Source: Kiritimatiellia bacterium (lineage in GTDB: Bacteria > Verrucomicrobiota > Kiritimatiellia > RZYC01). From it: a DNA stretch of 48,671 bases. The stretch spans positions 1 to 48,671 of the forward strand of contig JAQVYB010000009.1 in assembly GCA_028708815.1 (NCBI GenBank), written 5' to 3'. The position numbers and the translations under genes are program-made. This document shows positions 12,133-46,979 of this stretch, piece after piece (the first letter of the stretch is position 1; every line of letters starts with the position of its first letter). The notes beneath the pieces were generated by a model, which worked only from the letters and a program-made list of their open reading frames with translations, ran no database searches and was not told where the DNA came from.

Positions 12133-13452
12133 ATGAGTATGTTTGAGCCCTGCTATCATCCGAATCTTGAATTTCTGCCGCCGGAGGAACAGCGTCGCGT
12201 TCAGGCGGGTCTGCTCCAACAACAACTCCGCTATACCTTGGAAAAATCCCCGTATTACCGCCAAAGTCTTCCCGGCTGCCGCGTACCCGAAAAGCCCGAA
12301 GAGGTCTTTGCTTTTCTCTCCTCGCTGCCACTCACCACACGCGACGATCTGGCCCGCTGCAACGAGGCTTTTTTTGCCGCCCCGCCCCAGGCTGTACGCG
12401 AGGTCGTCTGTTCCTCGGGCACCACGGGACGCGCCATTGCGCTGCCCCTCACCAGCGTTGATCTGGAACATCTGACCGTAGCCGAATACTACACCTTTGC
12501 AGCAGCGGGGCTGACGGAAAACGATACGGTTCTGTTGTGCGTCACGATGGACTCGCTCTTCATGGCGGGCATGGCTTATTATCTGGGGCTCCAGCGTATC
12601 GGATGCTGCGTGTTGCGCCAGGGTGCCGGCGGGCCGGCTCTGCAGGTCGAACGGATTCGGCGCTTCGGCGTCACGGCGATCATGACCGTCCCTTCTTTCC
12701 TGCTGGCCATTCTCCGCGAGGCGGAGAAACAGGGGCTTTCCAAAACCGACTTTTTCCTGCGCAAAGCCATTCTGGTGGGCGACGCCGTGCGCGACGCCTC
12801 CCTGCGCCCCAATGCCGTGGCCCGCTGCATCGCCGGGCTGCACAACCTGGAACTCTACGGCAACTACGGAAACACGGAAATGAACGGCTCGCTCTGCGAA
12901 TGCAGCGCCGCCGCAGGACATCATATTCATCCGGACCTGGTCCATGCGGAAATTCTGCGCGGGGATGGCTCCCCGTGCGCCGACGGAGAGCCAGGCGCAC
13001 TGGTGGTCACCAGTCTTCAAACCGAAGGCGCACCCCTGATCCGCTACCGCACCGGCGACATTACCTTCCGTATCACCGAGCCCTGCGCCTGTGGGCGACA
13101 CTCACACCGCATCGGCCCCATTTTGGCACGCGAAAATCAGATGCTCAAAATACGCGGCACCACGATTTATCCCGCCGCCGTGCGCGATTATCTCCACGGT
13201 CATGAAGCCGTCCGCCATGCCGTACTGATTGCCGGGCGCGACGCCTGTCACGGCGAACAGCTCACCATCCTGCTTTGCGTCGACTCCCCCGACGAGCGCC
13301 TGCACACCCGCCTGCGCGATGAGCTCGCCGATGCCTTTCGCGTCCGCCCGGCCCTGGAGTTCCTGCCCGAAGAGCGCCTGCTCGAATTGATGTCACCCCC
13401 CGGCTATCGCAAAAAACGATGGTTCATAGACCGGCGCGGAGAACCCGACTGA
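12133..13452 (+). CDS. PaaK-like AMP-forming ligase (phenylacetate-CoA ligase family)
   Basis: Member of the ANL adenylating superfamily, 439 residues. The ATP-binding loop SSGTTG is at residues 94-99, the family motif YGNYGNTEMN lies near 240, and YRTGDI precedes the C-terminal lid domain (LKIRGTTIYPAAV). It should activate a carboxylic acid as an acyl-adenylate and pass it to CoA or another thiol; the substrate is unknown. The start is uncertain: ATG 12133 matches the family N-terminus, and an upstream TTG at 12094 is also in frame. It ends 2 bases before the B12 radical SAM gene, making it the first gene of a tightly coupled four-gene operon with two radical SAM enzymes and an acyltransferase. 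Confidence 0.8.
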   Translation: MSMFEPCYHPNLEFLPPEEQRRVQAGLLQQQLRYTLEKSPYYRQSLPGCRVPEKPEEVFAFLSSLPLTTRDDLARCNEAFFAAPPQAVREVVCSSGTTGRAIALPLTSVDLEHLTVAEYYTFAAAGLTENDTVLLCVTMDSLFMAGMAYYLGLQRIGCCVLRQGAGGPALQVERIRRFGVTAIMTVPSFLLAILREAEKQGLSKTDFFLRKAILVGDAVRDASLRPNAVARCIAGLHNLELYGNYGNTEMNGSLCECSAAAGHHIHPDLVHAEILRGDGSPCADGEPGALVVTSLQTEGAPLIRYRTGDITFRITEPCACGRHSHRIGPILARENQMLKIRGTTIYPAAVRDYLHGHEAVRHAVLIAGRDACHGEQLTILLCVDSPDERLHTRLRDELADAFRVRPALEFLPEERLLELMSPPGYRKKRWFIDRRGEPD

Positions 13453-13454
13453 CC

Positions 13455-14729
13455 ATGCACATCCACTTTATCTATCCACGCTGGAAAAAGCTGCTCGAGG
13501 ACTTCCCTGAACTGCGCGAAACCCTTTCCGGCAGAGAAGTCGGCACCTTCTGCATGGCCGGCCTCGGCATTCCAACCGCCGCCGCCGCCATCCCGCCCGA
13601 CCATACCGTGAGCATGACCGATGAGCACGTCGAACCCGTGGATTACGCCGTGCACGCCGACCTGATTGCCCTCAGTTTTTTCACCCCGCAGGCCTCCAAC
13701 GCCTATGCCATCGCCGACCGTTTTCGCGCGGCGGGCCGAACCGTTGTGGCCGGCGGCATTCATCCCTCCATGAACCCGGAAGAAACGCTCCTGCACGCCG
13801 ATGCCGTCATTACCGGCCCCTCCGAAGGGGTCTGGGAATCGCTGCTCGAGGATTTTCTTCATGGGCGCATGCAGCGCCTTTACCGAGGCACTCCAAACGC
13901 CCCCTTCGCCCAACCCCGCCGAGAACTATTTCGGGCCTCCGGCTACCTCCGCGCCGGGATCGTGCAAACCGCGCGCGGATGCGATGTGCGCTGCCCCTTT
14001 TGCGTTGTTCACGAATATAACGGCCCCGGAATTATCCGAAAACCTATCCCGGAAGTGCTCGATGATCTGCGCCGCCTGCCTTTCCCCTGCTTCTATTTTG
14101 CCGATGAAAACCTCCTGTTCAGCAATCCGTCCGACCGCGCCTACCGCCACGATCTCTTCGATGCCATGAAGGCGGAGAATATCCGCAAAGCCTTCTTTTT
14201 TGCTGCGTATCCCTTCATGCTGCGCGGCCTTTTGTCCGAAGACATACAGCGTCTGGCCAAAGCTGGATGCCGTCAGATTTATCTGGTACTCGGCCTGTTT
14301 GATCCCCTTTGCCGTGAACTGACGAATGAAAGCCTGATCGAGTCGATGCGCCGCCTGCAGGACGCCGGCATTGAAACCATGGCCTCCTTCACCATCGGCC
14401 ACGAAGAAGACGACCCCGCACAGACCGACGACCTCATCACCGCCTTCGCCTCCCGTTCGCATCTCAACCTCGCCGAATTCATCATTTGGACCCCCTTCCC
14501 CGGAACGCCCGTCTTCCAACAGTTGGAAAAAGAAGGCCGCATCCTCACCCGGGACTGGAGCCTCTACAACGGCGCGCACCCCGTCTTCCGCCCGCTCCGC
14601 GAAACACCCGAGGCCCTGCGCCGGCGTTTTATCCATTTATGGCGCGTATTTTATGAAAAACTCGATACATTCAACGTCAATCAGCGTTATGCAAAAGGAT
14701 TCAGCACGAGGATTTTCAATCATGAATAA
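13455..14729 (+). CDS. B12-binding domain radical SAM protein
   Basis: The N-terminal half (about 1-140) looks like a cobalamin-binding Rossmann fold (LIALSFFTPQASNAYAIAD, VVAGGIHPSMNPEE). The second half is a radical SAM core with the iron-sulfur motif CDVRCPFC (Cys 176, 180, 183). It lacks an obvious DxHxxG cobalamin His motif, so the fold may bind B12 base-off or be a vestige. Members methylate or rearrange unreactive carbons in lipids and natural products; the substrate here is unknown. The start at 13455 follows the ligase stop by 2 bases and its end overlaps the next gene by 8 bases, so all are translated together. Confidence 0.8.
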   Translation: MHIHFIYPRWKKLLEDFPELRETLSGREVGTFCMAGLGIPTAAAAIPPDHTVSMTDEHVEPVDYAVHADLIALSFFTPQASNAYAIADRFRAAGRTVVAGGIHPSMNPEETLLHADAVITGPSEGVWESLLEDFLHGRMQRLYRGTPNAPFAQPRRELFRASGYLRAGIVQTARGCDVRCPFCVVHEYNGPGIIRKPIPEVLDDLRRLPFPCFYFADENLLFSNPSDRAYRHDLFDAMKAENIRKAFFFAAYPFMLRGLLSEDIQRLAKAGCRQIYLVLGLFDPLCRELTNESLIESMRRLQDAGIETMASFTIGHEEDDPAQTDDLITAFASRSHLNLAEFIIWTPFPGTPVFQQLEKEGRILTRDWSLYNGAHPVFRPLRETPEALRRRFIHLWRVFYEKLDTFNVNQRYAKGFSTRIFNHE

Positions 14730-15792
14730 TAAACCGCTTCTCTCCCCCGAAAAAGTGTACGGGCTGCACTTCACCCCCGAAGAAATCCGCGAAGCAGTGG
14801 AGGGCAAGCGCCTGCTCACCCTCGACCTGGAAACCAGCCGCCAATGCAATCTCAAATGCATCTACTGTTACTCCGATGCCGGACGTAAAATGGAGAACGA
14901 ACTGACGCTGGATGAAATTCAGAGCGTCATCGATCAGGCCATCGAACTCGGGGTGCGTGCCATCACCATCATCGGCGGCGGCGAACCCCTGGTGGTCCCC
15001 TACATCCTCGACATGATCGACTACCTCAGCCGCCAACCCGTGAAAATCAATCTCTTCACCAACGCCACCCTCCTCACCCCGTTTAAGGCTGAATTTCTGC
15101 GCGACCGGCATGTCGCCGTCGTCACCAAATTCAACAGCATGAAACCCGAGGTGCAGGACCGCCTCGCCGGCGTACCCGGAAGCTACGACCGCATACAGGC
15201 CGGCATTCAACTGCTGCTGGATGCCGGATACGGCTCCTCGCCCGACCTGCCCCTCGGGCTCGAAACCATTATCTGCCGACAAAACATTGATGAAATCGAA
15301 ACCATGTGGCGCTACGCACGCGATCGGCGCTTCAATCCGTATTTTGAAGTCATCACCTTTCAGGGACGCGCCAAACGGGAAGCACTGAACGTCGAACCGG
15401 ACCAATTACAGCGCCTCTTCGAGCGCCTGCTGGCCATTGACGAAGAAGAATACGGCTACACCTGGATCCCACGCCCTCCCATTGCCGCGCTGACCTGTTC
15501 CCGCCATTACTACAACCTGCTCGTCACCTCCAACGGCTTTGTTCATCCCTGTACCGGCGTCGACATCAACGTGGGCAATATCCGGCACGAAACCCTCGCC
15601 GAGATCGTGCACACCTCGCCCGTCGTGGCCGCCCTGCGCGATGTCGGTTCGCTCATCAAAGGCAAGTGCCGCACCTGCCGACACAACCCCGAGTGCTATG
15701 GCTGCCGGGGGTTCGCCTACCATTTCTGCGGCGACTTCCTGGCCGCCGATCCCACCTGCTGGATCAACGACCCCAAGGAGCCGACCCCTTGA
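14722..15792 (+). CDS. Radical SAM/SPASM domain protein
   Basis: 356 residues. The radical SAM motif CNLKCIYC has cysteines at 42, 46 and 49, followed by the IIGGGEPL SAM-binding segment. The C-terminal region carries an SPASM-type auxiliary cluster set (C in HPCTGVDI, then CRTCRHNPECYGCRG, and a late Cys). Such enzymes modify peptides, or activate other enzymes, or act on small substrates. GAGGA lies 9 bases before the ATG, which overlaps the previous stop by 8 bases. No precursor peptide is visible beside it, so a RiPP role is not supported; context suggests action on the same substrate as its operon partners. Confidence 0.85.
   Translation: MNNKPLLSPEKVYGLHFTPEEIREAVEGKRLLTLDLETSRQCNLKCIYCYSDAGRKMENELTLDEIQSVIDQAIELGVRAITIIGGGEPLVVPYILDMIDYLSRQPVKINLFTNATLLTPFKAEFLRDRHVAVVTKFNSMKPEVQDRLAGVPGSYDRIQAGIQLLLDAGYGSSPDLPLGLETIICRQNIDEIETMWRYARDRRFNPYFEVITFQGRAKREALNVEPDQLQRLFERLLAIDEEEYGYTWIPRPPIAALTCSRHYYNLLVTSNGFVHPCTGVDINVGNIRHETLAEIVHTSPVVAALRDVGSLIKGKCRTCRHNPECYGCRGFAYHFCGDFLAADPTCWINDPKEPTP
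15775..15791 (+). promoter_or_regulatory. Ribosome binding site fixing a TTG start for the acyltransferase
   Basis: AAGGAG at 15775-15780 stands 8 bases before a TTG (15789-15791) that overlaps the preceding TGA stop as TTGA. No ATG in this frame lies near a similar site, so the TTG is the likely start. Confidence 0.75.
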
Positions 15793-16703
15793 CCGCCCCC
15801 CCCTCCACCACCGACTTTTTTACCGGAGGGTTTTCCTTTCTTGAATGGCTCGCACGCACCTTTCCTTATCCCATCCAGCGTGTGATTGCCCGCCTCTTCT
15901 GTGAAGCCGTCTTCTGGGGTACGGCATCCCTCCGCCGCACCCTTCTGCAAAACCTCGCCCTGGCCCATCCCGAAGCCTCTGGCTTCCAGCGCCTCCGAAC
16001 AGCTCATCGCATCCTCCTGAATTACGGCATCTACTTCTGCGACCTGTTTCGACTGCTCCACGCAACCGAACCACCCCCCATCGAAACCTTCTTTGACAAC
16101 CTGCAGAATCCCGAAACCATTCAAGCCGCCCTGGATGCCGAAAACGGCGCCCTGCTCATCACCCCGCATCTGGGCAACTGGGAACTGGGGATGCTCCCCC
16201 TCGGCACCTGCCGCGGACGCCTCGCCGCCATTACCGCGCCCATCAAAAACCCCTCCATGCGCAGAATAATGGAGACCTTCCGGGAACGCAACGGCATCGA
16301 ACTGGTGACGCTCGAAAACCCCGGCGAATACCTCTTTATGCTCAAACGCCTGCTCATGGAGCGGCGGCTGGTGACGCTGCTGGTGGATCGGTATATTGGC
16401 GGGCACGCCATGCAGGTCCCGTTTTTCGGGCGCGAAACCACGCTGCCCTGCGGGTATCTCCATCTGGCCCGCATGTTCGAAGCACCCATCGTGCCCGTCT
16501 TTGTTATCCGCAATCCAACCGGAAAATATTCCTGTATCGCCGAAACGCCAATCTACGTCAAACGCACCGACAACCGCGAGCGCGACATCCGCGAAGCCCT
16601 TCTCCGCGTCACCGCCGTCCTCGAAAAATACATCCTGCTCCACCTGGACCAGTGGTACGCCTTCGCTCCGCTTCAACAACCGGAGTCAGCCCTTACGAAT
16701 TAA
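15789..16703 (+). CDS. LpxL/HtrB-like lysophospholipid acyltransferase
   Basis: 304 residues with a TTG start. The HLGNWE motif (His 127) is the HX4D/E catalytic site typical of lipid A late acyltransferases, followed by GRLAAITAPIKNP and DRYIGGHAMQVPFFGRE, the expected substrate-binding blocks. A hydrophobic N-terminal region suggests inner-membrane association. It should transfer an acyl chain onto a glycolipid or other lipid. As last gene of an operon with a PaaK-like ligase and two radical SAM enzymes, it may attach the unusual acid those enzymes make. A housekeeping lipid A role is the alternative. Confidence 0.85.
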   Translation: MTAPPSTTDFFTGGFSFLEWLARTFPYPIQRVIARLFCEAVFWGTASLRRTLLQNLALAHPEASGFQRLRTAHRILLNYGIYFCDLFRLLHATEPPPIETFFDNLQNPETIQAALDAENGALLITPHLGNWELGMLPLGTCRGRLAAITAPIKNPSMRRIMETFRERNGIELVTLENPGEYLFMLKRLLMERRLVTLLVDRYIGGHAMQVPFFGRETTLPCGYLHLARMFEAPIVPVFVIRNPTGKYSCIAETPIYVKRTDNRERDIREALLRVTAVLEKYILLHLDQWYAFAPLQQPESALTN

Positions 16704-42719: not shown

Positions 42720-42781
42720 ATAACACGCAAACGGCACGCATGCAGCAGGCCGCGCAAACAGCTCAGGGGGGAGATTCAAGG

Positions 42782-44887
42782 ATGAATGGTATGGCAATAC
42801 GATGGTGGATGACGATGGGCATTCTCGGTGCAGCTCTTCAGGTGCAGGCGGCGCCGACCGTGGTAAACACCGGGGCGGCGGTACTGACGGTAACCGGAGC
42901 GGGGGGCGTACGCAGCAGCATTGCCGTGGACAGCGCCGCCACGCCGCATGTGGTCACCACCGAGGCTCCTGGAAACAATTTTTACTTTTCCGACCTGGTC
43001 AACGGGTCCTTTTCCACCGTGAAATACGATTCCTCGGCCCTCTTCAACAGCCCGCAATTCGGGTCGCCGCATATGGAGATCGACGCCAACGACACCGCCT
43101 GGATTTCCGCCACGTTCTGGTATCCAAACATGGGCATCGGAATTACGGTGCGCCCGAACATCAAAAGCAAGCCCGGCGCATGGCCGAGTTTTAACAGCGA
43201 AGATATATGGGGCGGCGGCACCTATGATGTCGCCAATCTCTCGCTGGATCCATCTGCTCTCGGCAAATGCTACTTCGGTTCGCACCGGGGCGTCTGGGAG
43301 GAATACACCTTCAACGCCTCCGCCTACAATATTTACGAAAGTGCCAACGGCACGGTGAATGACGGCGCCGGAGGAGAAAAGGCCTACTTCTGGATCAGTA
43401 AAGCCGGAAGCGTACAACATGCCAATGGACCGAACGTCGGCGTGAAACACCATGCCACCGAATGGTCTTACAACAACTCGCTGCGCGCCGCGGCGGGACT
43501 CGATTGCCTGAAATGGTCCGACTGGGACTACTACCCCGGCATGTTGAACGATCACGCCTATCCCTCCGTAGTGTCCGACAGCACGGAACCGCAAACCGCC
43601 TATATAGTGGCCGTGTATGACGAACGCGCGCCTTACGGCATCTTCCTGAATATCTGGCACGGAACCGACAATAACGGCAACGGCTACTTCGCCTTCAGTC
43701 CGCAGGGCGGTCTGCTCTGCCTCGATCCCGATGGACGCACCGGCACCGGCGGACGCTACGAAGTGCAGCAATATCCCGCCAACCGGGGCGGCGTTTGGGT
43801 GAGCTGGATTCGCGCCGGGCGCGCCAAGCTCCGTTATGTGCCGGCCAACGCCGCGAAACTGGCCGATTGCGGGCCCGAGGTGGATGTCTGCGCGGCAAGC
43901 GTCGTGGGCTCCATCTGCGTCGACTTCAATGGCGACATTCACATGTCCTACGTGGGTAACAACGCGGTTCAGTACCGCCGAATCACCGTCTCCGGCGACA
44001 GCCGCGTCCTTTCCAAATACACCTATCTCGCCGGCGATTACGATGGCAACGGCTACGATGACCTCTGTGTCTATGCTCCCTCAAACGGCACCTGGTACAC
44101 CTGGTTCAACAAAAACGGAAGCTGGATGCGCACCGAGACCAAACAATGGGGCTGGGCCGAAGCCCAGGCCGTACCCGCCGATTATGATGGCGACGGCATC
44201 ACCGACCGCGCCGTGTTTGCCCCGACCCTCGGCTCCTGGTACGTTTGGAAGAGCAAGACCCAGACTCAGTGGACCACGCAATGGGGCTGGAGCGAGTCCA
44301 TGCCCCTCCCGGCGGACTACAGCGGCACGGGGTGCGCCACGCCCGCCGTGTATGATCCGTCCACCGGGCGGTGGTACATCCAGCTCGCCAACGGTAAAAC
44401 CAAGACCCTGGACCTCGGCTACCCCGCCGCCATCCCCGTACCCGGCGATTACAATGGCGATGGGCGTGACGACATCGCCGTCTATTCACCCGACACCGGC
44501 GCCTGGACTGCCCGCGACGTCCTCACCGGCAAGGTCATTCTGAATCTGAATTGGGGCTGGGCCTCCGCCCGTCCGGTCCCCTTTGATTACAACGGCGATG
44601 GACGCCACGATCTCGTGGTCTATGATTCCGGCACCGGAAAATGGTACTGCAACTTTCTGAACGGCCAAACCCGCACCTTCCTGTGGGGCGGCGGCCAGCT
44701 GTTGCCCGTGCCCGGACGCTATCGGCGCGCGCACCCCAGTTTCCGCAATGCGCAATTCGGCGTTTATTACCCCGATACCGGCTCCTGGGCCATCCGCGAA
44801 TTCCTCATGGAGTTTCTCAGCCCGTGGTACTTGATGCTGGACTTCGGCTTCCCCGAGGCCCGCCCCCCCGCCTATCTGATCGAATAA
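42782..44887 (+). CDS. Secreted protein with FG-GAP/VCBS-like repeats
   Basis: 701 residues from the ATG at 42782, after a GGGGGAG. Signal peptide (MGILGAALQVQAAPT cut). An N-terminal beta-rich domain (about 25-410) with many Trp and Tyr, followed by six repeats of about 48 residues (from about 415), each with a calcium-loop-like 'DYDGDG..D..VY.P..G.WY' pattern, as in FG-GAP/VCBS proteins. The last repeat is degenerate. No LPXTG or PEP-CTERM end is seen. Function unknown; likely surface or extracellular. Confidence 0.8.
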   Translation: MNGMAIRWWMTMGILGAALQVQAAPTVVNTGAAVLTVTGAGGVRSSIAVDSAATPHVVTTEAPGNNFYFSDLVNGSFSTVKYDSSALFNSPQFGSPHMEIDANDTAWISATFWYPNMGIGITVRPNIKSKPGAWPSFNSEDIWGGGTYDVANLSLDPSALGKCYFGSHRGVWEEYTFNASAYNIYESANGTVNDGAGGEKAYFWISKAGSVQHANGPNVGVKHHATEWSYNNSLRAAAGLDCLKWSDWDYYPGMLNDHAYPSVVSDSTEPQTAYIVAVYDERAPYGIFLNIWHGTDNNGNGYFAFSPQGGLLCLDPDGRTGTGGRYEVQQYPANRGGVWVSWIRAGRAKLRYVPANAAKLADCGPEVDVCAASVVGSICVDFNGDIHMSYVGNNAVQYRRITVSGDSRVLSKYTYLAGDYDGNGYDDLCVYAPSNGTWYTWFNKNGSWMRTETKQWGWAEAQAVPADYDGDGITDRAVFAPTLGSWYVWKSKTQTQWTTQWGWSESMPLPADYSGTGCATPAVYDPSTGRWYIQLANGKTKTLDLGYPAAIPVPGDYNGDGRDDIAVYSPDTGAWTARDVLTGKVILNLNWGWASARPVPFDYNGDGRHDLVVYDSGTGKWYCNFLNGQTRTFLWGGGQLLPVPGRYRRAHPSFRNAQFGVYYPDTGSWAIREFLMEFLSPWYLMLDFGFPEARPPAYLIE
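44020..44830 (+). repeat. Six tandem protein repeats in the secreted protein
   Basis: Coding repeats of about 144-150 bases with the shared motif D-Y-[DN]-G-[DN]-G followed by VY.P..G.WY. Units three and six have lost several calcium-loop residues. Confidence 0.75.
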
Positions 44888-44901: not shown

Positions 44902-45912
44902 ATGACCTTGATCGTTGACCATAATTTGTCGCCTCAACACACCATTCCAATCGGCAGCCTGTGCGAGTTCCATCTGGAAAAGGAACTCCCCGCCGAGAGC
45001 GAATGCTGCATCCGCCACGCCTCGATTCTGTATCTCAAACCGCTCCCGCACCCGGCGGCGGAGCGGATCCTGCGCTTCTTTCCCGAAGCACCGGGACGCT
45101 ACTCGCTGCTCCTCTTGTCCCCCGCCGGAGCCGAAGGCAGCGTTATCCGCGAGGAATTCCCCTTCGAGGTGCTCGCCAAAGAAGCCTCCTTCGACGGACC
45201 GCAACGACTCAAAACGTACAACCGAAACAATCTGCTCGTACCCAACGCCTGGGATGCCAAAAACTTTTCGTCCTTCGAAAAGCCCGTCTGGAGCGCCATC
45301 AAGGAACAGGTCAAACCCGGCTGGGTGGCCTACGACATCGGCGCCAATATGGGCATCTACTCCACGGCCTTCTCCCAACTGGTCGGACCTGCCGGACGGG
45401 TCTACTGCTTTGAAGCCAACCCCATGTGCCTCTATTTTCTGCAAACCAACCTGGCGCATGAAAAATGCGCGGAGAACTGCGAAATCATCCCGGAGGCCAT
45501 TCACAACCATACGGGCGAGTGCGCCTTTTCGATCAACTATGCCAACACCGGCATCGGCATGACCGCGACCAATTCCATGTACGGCGGCAAAATAGGACAC
45601 GAAATCAAGGTGCACTGTTCCGATTTGGATGCCCTGGCCACGCGTCTGGCCCTGCGTCCGCCCCAATTCATAAAAATAGACATCGAAGGCGCGGAAGGCG
45701 CCGCCATTCTCGGCATGAAAAACATCCTGCAGAAGGAACACCCGATCCTGCTCGTGGAAGTGCATGGCATCGAACCCGCACGCGTTGTTTTTCCCGCGTT
45801 GGATACCTGCCACTACGCCTATCAGGAAGTCAACGGTCGGACGCGGTTTAATTCCGCGCAGGAAGTCCTGGACTGGTTCCCCGACAACGTGTTTCAGTTT
45901 CTCTGTACGTAA
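44902..45912 (+). CDS. FkbM family methyltransferase
   Basis: 336 residues. An N-terminal beta-type region (about 1-100) precedes the SAM domain: YDIGANMGIYSTAFSQLVG (near 145), CFEANPMCLYFLQTNL, then FIKIDIEGAEGAAILGM, all typical of FkbM methyltransferases that O-methylate sugars or polyketides. AGGAA precedes the ATG. The stop and the next start overlap (TAATG). Given its neighbours, a surface-glycan methylation role is likely but not proven. Confidence 0.88.
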   Translation: MTLIVDHNLSPQHTIPIGSLCEFHLEKELPAESECCIRHASILYLKPLPHPAAERILRFFPEAPGRYSLLLLSPAGAEGSVIREEFPFEVLAKEASFDGPQRLKTYNRNNLLVPNAWDAKNFSSFEKPVWSAIKEQVKPGWVAYDIGANMGIYSTAFSQLVGPAGRVYCFEANPMCLYFLQTNLAHEKCAENCEIIPEAIHNHTGECAFSINYANTGIGMTATNSMYGGKIGHEIKVHCSDLDALATRLALRPPQFIKIDIEGAEGAAILGMKNILQKEHPILLVEVHGIEPARVVFPALDTCHYAYQEVNGRTRFNSAQEVLDWFPDNVFQFLCT

Positions 45913-46979
45913 TGAAAAAACTTCTTCTCAAACTGCTGTTGATCCCGCTGCTCACCCTGGTTCTTTGTGAAATGGCGCTTCGCCTCTATCATCACCTGGC
46001 CCCCTCGTTCATTTTCTACGACGCCGGCTACAATCGCTATCGCGCGCGCCCGCACAGCCTCCATCACGGCTATGAATTCAATTCGCTGGGCTTCCCCGGC
46101 GATGAAATTACGCCGAAACAACCGGAGACCTTTCGGATTCTGGGCATGGGTGATTCGTTTGCCGTCGGGGTCGTGCCCTATCCCGACAACTACTACACGC
46201 TGCTGGGAGAGCACCTCGCCAAGGCCGGGGAAAAGACCGAGGTCATCAACATCGGCATCTCCGCCATCGGCGTCAAAGATTACCTGGCCCTCTTCATCAA
46301 CGAGGGCCTGAGCTTCGAACCGGACATGGTCATTCTTTCCTTTTTTGTCGGGAACGACTTCCAGGACCGAATCGAAGAGGAAGCCGACCGTCCGCTCTAC
46401 ACACACTCCTATGTGCTGACCCTGCTTCGCTTTTTTTACCGGGCCTTCAACAAAACGGACTCCCCCGGCATCCTCTATGATCACACCGAGTATTGCGATG
46501 ACTGCCCGACCTTTGACGAACCCACCTACCTGAACATCGAGTTGGACCGCAGCTATATCTGCCTGAAAGACAACGCCAAACTGCTGAACGAGCTGAAGGA
46601 AATCACCGGCTACCTGCAAACCTTTTCCGCGTTGTGCAAAGACCGCAGCATTGAATTCCTGGTCGTCCTCATTCCAGACGAACTCCAGATCAACACCGAC
46701 CTGCAAAAAAAAGTTAAAGCCGAATATTATCCCGATCTGCCCCCGGATCAATGGGTCAACGATCAACCCAACCACCTTCTGAGGGCCACGCTCGGCCCGC
46801 TCGGCATCGCCTGTTTAGATTTATATCCGGCCTTTCTCAACGCCGGGAAAACACAAACGCTGTACCGCCTGCGGGACAGCCATTGGAACCGGGCGGGCAA
46901 CCGCCTGGCTGCCGAGAGTATCGCTCAGTTTCTAAACGAAAAGAGAACCGCGCCTCCGAAGTCCGCGCCTCCGGAATAG
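45912..46979 (+). CDS. Membrane-anchored SGNH/GDSL-like hydrolase
   Basis: 355 residues. N-terminal membrane anchor (LLLKLLLIPLLTLVL), then block I ILGMGDSFAVGV with the catalytic-like Ser, FVGNDFQD as block III, and a C-terminal RDSHWNRAGN with the Asp and His pair. This is the AlgX/DltD-type pattern for moving or removing acyl groups on polysaccharides. The ATG overlaps the FkbM stop. Confidence 0.82.
   Translation: MKKLLLKLLLIPLLTLVLCEMALRLYHHLAPSFIFYDAGYNRYRARPHSLHHGYEFNSLGFPGDEITPKQPETFRILGMGDSFAVGVVPYPDNYYTLLGEHLAKAGEKTEVINIGISAIGVKDYLALFINEGLSFEPDMVILSFFVGNDFQDRIEEEADRPLYTHSYVLTLLRFFYRAFNKTDSPGILYDHTEYCDDCPTFDEPTYLNIELDRSYICLKDNAKLLNELKEITGYLQTFSALCKDRSIEFLVVLIPDELQINTDLQKKVKAEYYPDLPPDQWVNDQPNHLLRATLGPLGIACLDLYPAFLNAGKTQTLYRLRDSHWNRAGNRLAAESIAQFLNEKRTAPPKSAPPE

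Follow-up and report, generated by a model that had tools for sequence, protein, structure and literature searches.

The four-gene operon described here, from an uncultured, anaerobic Kiritimatiellia bacterium, is probably one module of a type II fatty-acid/polyketide-like pathway whose genes are dispersed over at least three such modules, and in which an unsaturated chain would be made, modified by radical SAM enzymes, attached to an envelope lipid and exported. Judged by its gene families and by the loci of its relatives, it appears to be a detached part of a cluster type that is already known, the “ladderane” FASII loci of Kuenenia and Desulfotalea, which are related to aryl-polyene and flexirubin loci. 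The window, i.e. the whole stretch of DNA that was analysed (48,671 nucleotides), is the entire contig C36 of a 272-contig assembly. From herein, G000 is the window's own genome and G002 is a genome of the same family. The four ORFs of the operon are all intact and all lie on the + strand:

12133..13452, + strand: FlxY-like (PaaK-fold) acyl-CoA ligase (PF00501; NF053551 match)
13455..14729, + strand: B12-binding-type radical SAM enzyme, named rSAMa (PF02310, partial, residues 65-129, and PF04055)
14722..15792, + strand: radical SAM/SPASM enzyme of a ladderane/polyene-cluster family (PF04055 and PF13186)
15789..16703, + strand: LpxL/PatA-fold acyltransferase with a TTG start (PF03279, E 6e-35; HLGNWE)

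A gyrase-B/ParE-like gene lies upstream, and genes for a zinc-ribbon protein and QueH lie downstream; none of these is part of the operon. An earlier, sequence-only reading of this DNA had named the four families, quoted the motifs SSGTTG, CDVRCPFC, CNLKCIYC and HLGNWE, and described a 2-base gap between the ligase and rSAMa, an 8-base overlap of rSAMa and the SPASM gene, and a TTGA overlap of the SPASM and acyltransferase genes. These details are all as described, and Pfam agrees for each gene (in order: AMP-binding; B12-binding and Radical_SAM; Radical_SAM and SPASM; Lip_A_acyltrans). The spacing suggests that the four genes may be translated together. G002 carries rSAMa, SPASM and LpxL-type genes in the same order and with the same 8-base rSAMa/SPASM overlap (identities of 64%, 77% and 56%, respectively), and the ATG of its acyltransferase, which occupies the same position, aligns with the TTG start of the window gene. 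Substitutions in the four genes relative to the same-family genome affect the third position in 57-62% of codons and the second position in 10-28%, and this concentration at third positions indicates that all four genes are selected as proteins. The arrangement is beyond chance, given the gene order kept in G002 and a FlxY-SPASM neighbour pair kept across phyla.

The best NCBIfam match of the ligase is NF053551, FlxY_rubin (flexirubin acyl-CoA ligase; E 2e-112, 375.9 bits, full length). As this score lies under the equivalog cut-off of 520 bits, the protein is referred to as FlxY-like and not as FlxY. Its nearest solved structures are phenylacetate-CoA ligases, its orthologues in G002, G001 and G018 are 60%, 48% and 37% identical, and the FlxY proteins encoded in syntenic relatives reach 411-459 bits. 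Among 241 genomes drawn from the same phylum, FlxY-like matches of more than about 390 bits are found in 31 genomes, clearly set off from the next group, which scores below 235 bits. The SPASM family occurs in 21 genomes of this draw, 20 of which also encode FlxY, and in 18 of these 20 genomes no more than 100 bases separate the two genes (in G001, they adjoin on contig C371). The two non-adjacent cases are the window, where rSAMa is inserted between them, and G242, where they are 12 kb apart. A PaaK-like ligase with radical SAM genes as neighbours, as in Kuenenia (PMC4790861), is present in the window (12133-15792), and the adjacency is conserved in relatives.

The SPASM enzyme is 77%, 67%, 43% and 43% identical to its homologues in G002, G001 (two copies) and G018. 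It has both the CxxxCxxC motif (C42/46/49) and the seven-cysteine SPASM domain (C259/277/316/319/325/328/346) that define radical SAM/SPASM proteins, and all of these cysteines are invariant in five homologues. The family also occurs beyond the phylum: it was confirmed in 251 stretches of genome contigs, and the 80 that were kept come mainly from Desulfobulbaceae, Nitrospirota and other anaerobes. Fatty acid synthesis genes (at least one of KS, ACP, KS-like, FabG and dehydratase) are present in 59 of the 61 SPASM loci that span 10 kb or more, across phyla. Outside Desulfobulbaceae, the order seen most often is FabG, CrtI-like, KS, ACP, FlxY, SPASM, LolA, MMPL, DUF3261, ApeI-like dehydratase, thioesterase, KS, KS-like, a B12-type radical SAM enzyme (rSAMd), the TIGR04072 radical SAM enzyme (rSAMc) and a glycosyltransferase. 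The SPASM ORF has about 490 residues in FlxY-adjacent loci, versus about 345 in most loci without FlxY, and the extra part has a weak match to the ApeP-like dehydratase family (E 2e-4, under the cut-off). Of all the findings, this putative SPASM-dehydratase fusion in relatives gives the strongest hint that the SPASM enzyme may act on a growing acyl chain.

Further pieces of such a cluster are encoded elsewhere in the window's own genome. Contig C29 (locus L023) carries genes for a LolA-like protein, a second B12-type radical SAM enzyme (rSAMb), KS, a short KS-like partner, a TIGR04072-like rSAMc, FabG, ACP and a FabZ-like dehydratase, and contig C57 (L174) has genes for KS and its KS-like partner together with one for an MMPL exporter. 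In G002, contig C101 holds one uninterrupted run of rSAMa-SPASM-LpxL followed by LolA-rSAMb-KS-KSlike-rSAMc-FabG-ACP-FabZ, and contig C31 has the KS/KS-like/MMPL set beside FlxY. The window's species therefore has the pathway in three pieces, and G002 has it in two. The C36, C29 and C57 pieces are alike in GC content (0.60, 0.61 and 0.61). Since those on C36 and C29 are interior to their contigs, the separation of these two is not explained by an assembly break, though misassembly could conceivably account for it. That the three modules function together is suggested by their linkage in a relative; in the window's genome, which is metagenome-derived, they are on separate contigs.

The partners on C29 and C57, the linkage on C101 of G002 and the clusters of relatives together indicate that the operon is a detached module and not a pathway of its own. 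The sequence-only reading had favoured an undescribed, stand-alone four-gene pathway, independent of ACP and KS, in which an acid is activated, modified by radical chemistry and used to acylate lipid A or a glycolipid. The tight coupling of the genes, the LpxL fold and a contig with no other pathway genes are in keeping with this, but we consider it very improbable, as homologues of the pieces lie in clusters with KS, ACP, FabG, dehydratase and exporter genes across phyla, the partners lacking from the window are found in the same genome, and four other PF03279 genes are available for lipid A-type work. The stand-alone claim fails the check that the reading itself had proposed, conserved neighbours in the absence of ACP and KS genes: the order rSAMa-SPASM-LpxL (in G002) and the FlxY-SPASM pair are conserved, but KS and ACP genes are present in the clusters of relatives and on C29 and C57.

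The scattering of the pathway over three contigs, together with a missing CrtI gene, could also mean that the operon is a decaying remnant of a pathway that fell apart in this lineage, and contig C101 of G002 does start with remnants of rSAMa and KS. However, the ORFs are intact, their catalytic motifs are kept and their substitutions are biased to third positions, and G002 keeps the whole set although it too is without CrtI, making decay very improbable.

With regard to this gene, a CrtI-like flavin desaturase (phytoene-desaturase-like) had no match in G000 or G002; it is present in G001 (contig C313), G018 and many others. The dispersed pathway does include three B12-type radical SAM enzymes. 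Close orthologues of rSAMa (61-64% identity; beyond E 1e-90) are found only in the three genomes of the window's family, among 193 genomes of the class. In the phylogeny, a single clade unites rSAMa, rSAMb and the rSAMd of clusters, with rSAMa nearer to rSAMd (97/87, at a point where long branches meet). A phmmer search of the PDB with rSAMa gave no match. Its AlphaFold model (pLDDT 83.9) is most similar to AprD4 (TM 0.76), followed by cobalamin-dependent methylases of the TsrM/MgmA type; at about 17% identity, this likeness of predicted fold has no bearing on substrate. The model thus places rSAMa among the B12-fold radical SAM enzymes, an assignment to class that leaves the reaction unfixed. 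rSAMc scores 275.3 bits (G000) and 299.9 bits (G002) against the “ladderane” model TIGR04072, below its cut-off of 360 bits; in syntenic relatives it exceeds the cut-off (617 bits in L078 and 620 bits in G018). It is conceivable, if rather unlikely, that the three B12-type radical SAM enzymes and the SPASM enzyme replace the CrtI-like desaturase, and perhaps the starter-making step, in a polyene- or ladderane-like lipid pathway that is anaerobic throughout.

The best PDB matches of the acyltransferase are the PIM acyltransferase PatA and a lipid A acyltransferase. Its best scores to NCBIfam models of LpxL/LpxM are 88-96 bits against cut-offs of 209-248, and it can therefore be assigned to the fold family and not to LpxL or LpxM. 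G000 encodes five PF03279 proteins, the window's and four others. In a tree built without housekeeping LpxL copies, the window protein is not close kin of the glycosyltransferase (GT)-linked acyltransferases of other clusters, which rules it out as their orthologue. Given these scores and the five PF03279 genes of the genome, lipid A modification is unsupported as the main role. Nor is lipid A supported as the acceptor, in view of the four other PF03279 proteins and the distance from the GT-linked acyltransferases. The more general logic of the sequence-only reading, that an acid is activated, altered by radical SAM enzymes and placed on a lipid, fits the findings.

The pairing of a ligase with radical SAM genes has been described before. 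In Kuenenia, a phenylacetyl-CoA-ligase-like gene adjoins two radical SAM genes (kuste3342-3344, in the numbering of PMC4790861) within a FASII cluster described in 2009 and 2016 (PMC2649909, PMC4790861). Here we take the content of the Kuenenia and Desulfotalea clusters as published in these two papers. Both clusters carry radical SAM genes and a ligase, and polyunsaturated acyl chains have been proposed as their products (Rattray et al. 2009, PMC2649909); such clusters are called “ladderane” by antiSMASH, ladderane makers being anammox bacteria. They share with the genes described here the adjacency of ligase and radical SAM genes, non-canonical KS paralogues, ACP, FabG, FabZ and a membrane transport gene, and a further likeness is that the SPASM family of the window is widespread in Desulfobulbaceae. 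In contrast to them, the genes here are spread over three loci, no phytoene-desaturase-like gene was found, a family-restricted rSAMa lies between the ligase and SPASM genes, and the LpxL-type acyltransferase is of another lineage. Measured against the ladderane type, the combination of fatty acid synthesis genes with radical SAM genes is present over C36, C29 and C57 taken together, and on one contig of G002, but not in the window alone, and a CrtI-like gene is found in neither genome.

The flexirubin cluster of Chitinophaga and Flavobacterium (FlxA-FlxY, PMC3992019) is alike in its FlxY-family ligase, KS sets, KR, DH, exporter, acyltransferase and LolA-like protein (NF053544, a weak match), and differs in that no ammonia lyase FlxA was found here and several radical SAM enzymes are present. 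The E. coli aryl polyene (APE) cluster (ApeA-R, PMC8253772) shares LolA-like, RND/MMPL and dehydratase functions and an ApeP-like domain that in relatives is fused to SPASM, and its ApeD/ApeJ occupy a comparable acyltransferase slot. In that system, roles have been described for ApeL/M/N/J/I/P; export has been proposed for the LolA-like, RND and DUF3261 proteins, and transfer of the chain to a lipid for two acyltransferases (PMC8253772). It differs in its initiating ligase, which is ApeH and not of the FlxY/PaaK type, and no chorismate lyase was found here; radical SAM enzymes do not figure in the published APE list. Overall, the flexirubin/aryl-polyene set of KS/KS-like, DH, KR, ACP and LolA/MMPL is present on C29 and C57, and in G002, and a source of an aryl starter (ammonia or chorismate lyase) was not found.

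These likenesses raise the possibility of a true, flexirubin-like aryl polyene, in which FlxY would load 4-coumarate or another aryl acid, the chain would be a conjugated polyene pigment and the radical SAM enzymes would have no more than a tailoring role. In Chitinophaga pinensis, FlxY is a 4-coumarate-CoA ligase (PMC3992019), relatives carry LolA, MMPL, DUF3261, ApeI-like and ApeP-like genes, and a yellow Pontiella has predicted carotenoid or aryl-polyene genes (PMC7356697). However, no aromatic ammonia lyase (PF00221) was found in G000, G001, G002, G018 and four further cluster carriers, and no chorismate lyase (PF04345) in five genomes. Tyrosine ammonia lyase and chorismate lyase are thus rejected as starter sources and an aryl starter is unsupported, with the proviso that other sources exist. 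The score of the ligase under the equivalog cut-off also counts against an aryl polyene, which we regard as possible but doubtful; as it is a sub-case of the dispersed-module explanation, the likelihoods of the two overlap.

Under this broader explanation of a dispersed fatty-acid/polyketide-like pathway, the FlxY-like ligase would convert a starter (or released) carboxylic acid to a thioester, and the KS/KS-like pairs, FabG, FabZ-like dehydratase and ACP of C29 and C57 would extend the chain without full reduction. The SPASM enzyme may take the ACP-bound or freshly dehydrated chain as substrate, and rSAMa, with the rSAMb and TIGR04072-like rSAMc of C29, may desaturate, methylate or cyclise it, amounting to putative oxygen-independent radical SAM chemistry on a highly unsaturated acyl chain. 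The LpxL-fold acyltransferase would then transfer the chain to a lipid or glycolipid, and the LolA-like and MMPL proteins would export it to the outer membrane. The chemistry, order of steps and product proposed here are inferred from gene content, families, linkage, the split and the fusion, which are observed.

Ladderane-type clusters are already on record from metagenome-assembled genomes of Verrucomicrobiota (PMC9902471), and the yellow Pontiella desulfatans has been suggested to carry carotenoid or aryl-polyene genes (PMC7356697). What we describe is accordingly a variant of a known cluster type and not a new class of pathway. Its unusual features are a radical SAM paralogue restricted to one family, the split into three, and the lack of a CrtI-like desaturase and of an aryl-starter lyase. 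Ladderanes were not detected when anammox cluster genes were expressed heterologously (PMC4790861). A natural variant without the CrtI-like gene, yet with FlxY, SPASM and B12-type radical SAM genes, shows which parts travel together, and the SPASM-dehydratase fusions of relatives suggest that the SPASM enzyme acts on the growing acyl chain. A carrier of the FlxY-SPASM pair in the same class, Pontiellaceae bacterium B12227 (L151), makes a test in culture conceivable.

The ketosynthase (KS), KS-like and exporter (MMPL) genes at locus L174, on contig C57 of the window's own genome, are directly adjoined by a pyrophosphatase gene that has a possible tie to transport:

L174, 6921-9470, same strand as the KS/KS-like/MMPL module: membrane H+-pyrophosphatase (PF03030, E 8e-256)

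On contig C92 of this genome, about 4 kb separate two genes that perhaps constitute an additional lipid pathway:

C92, 1657-2844: second PaaK-like ligase
C92, 6595-7446: another LpxL-fold gene

The window contig also carries two genes with no relation to its four-gene operon:

42740-44887: large FG-GAP repeat protein
45912-46979: AlgX-like SGNH protein

Locus L176, on contig C313 of the relative genome G001, is a second ladderane/aryl-polyene-like cluster, with its own SPASM, CrtI-like and LpxL-like genes and a long KS-containing protein:

L176, 5432-11719: KS-containing protein of 2095 residues, type I PKS-like by reading

Short remnants of the module are found at locus L021 in the same-family genome G002:

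L021 (contig C101), 108-417, contig start: remnants matching rSAMa, the operon's B12-binding-type radical SAM enzyme (residues 17-59, 64% identity), and KS (62%)

Their presence suggests an earlier duplication or rearrangement of the module.
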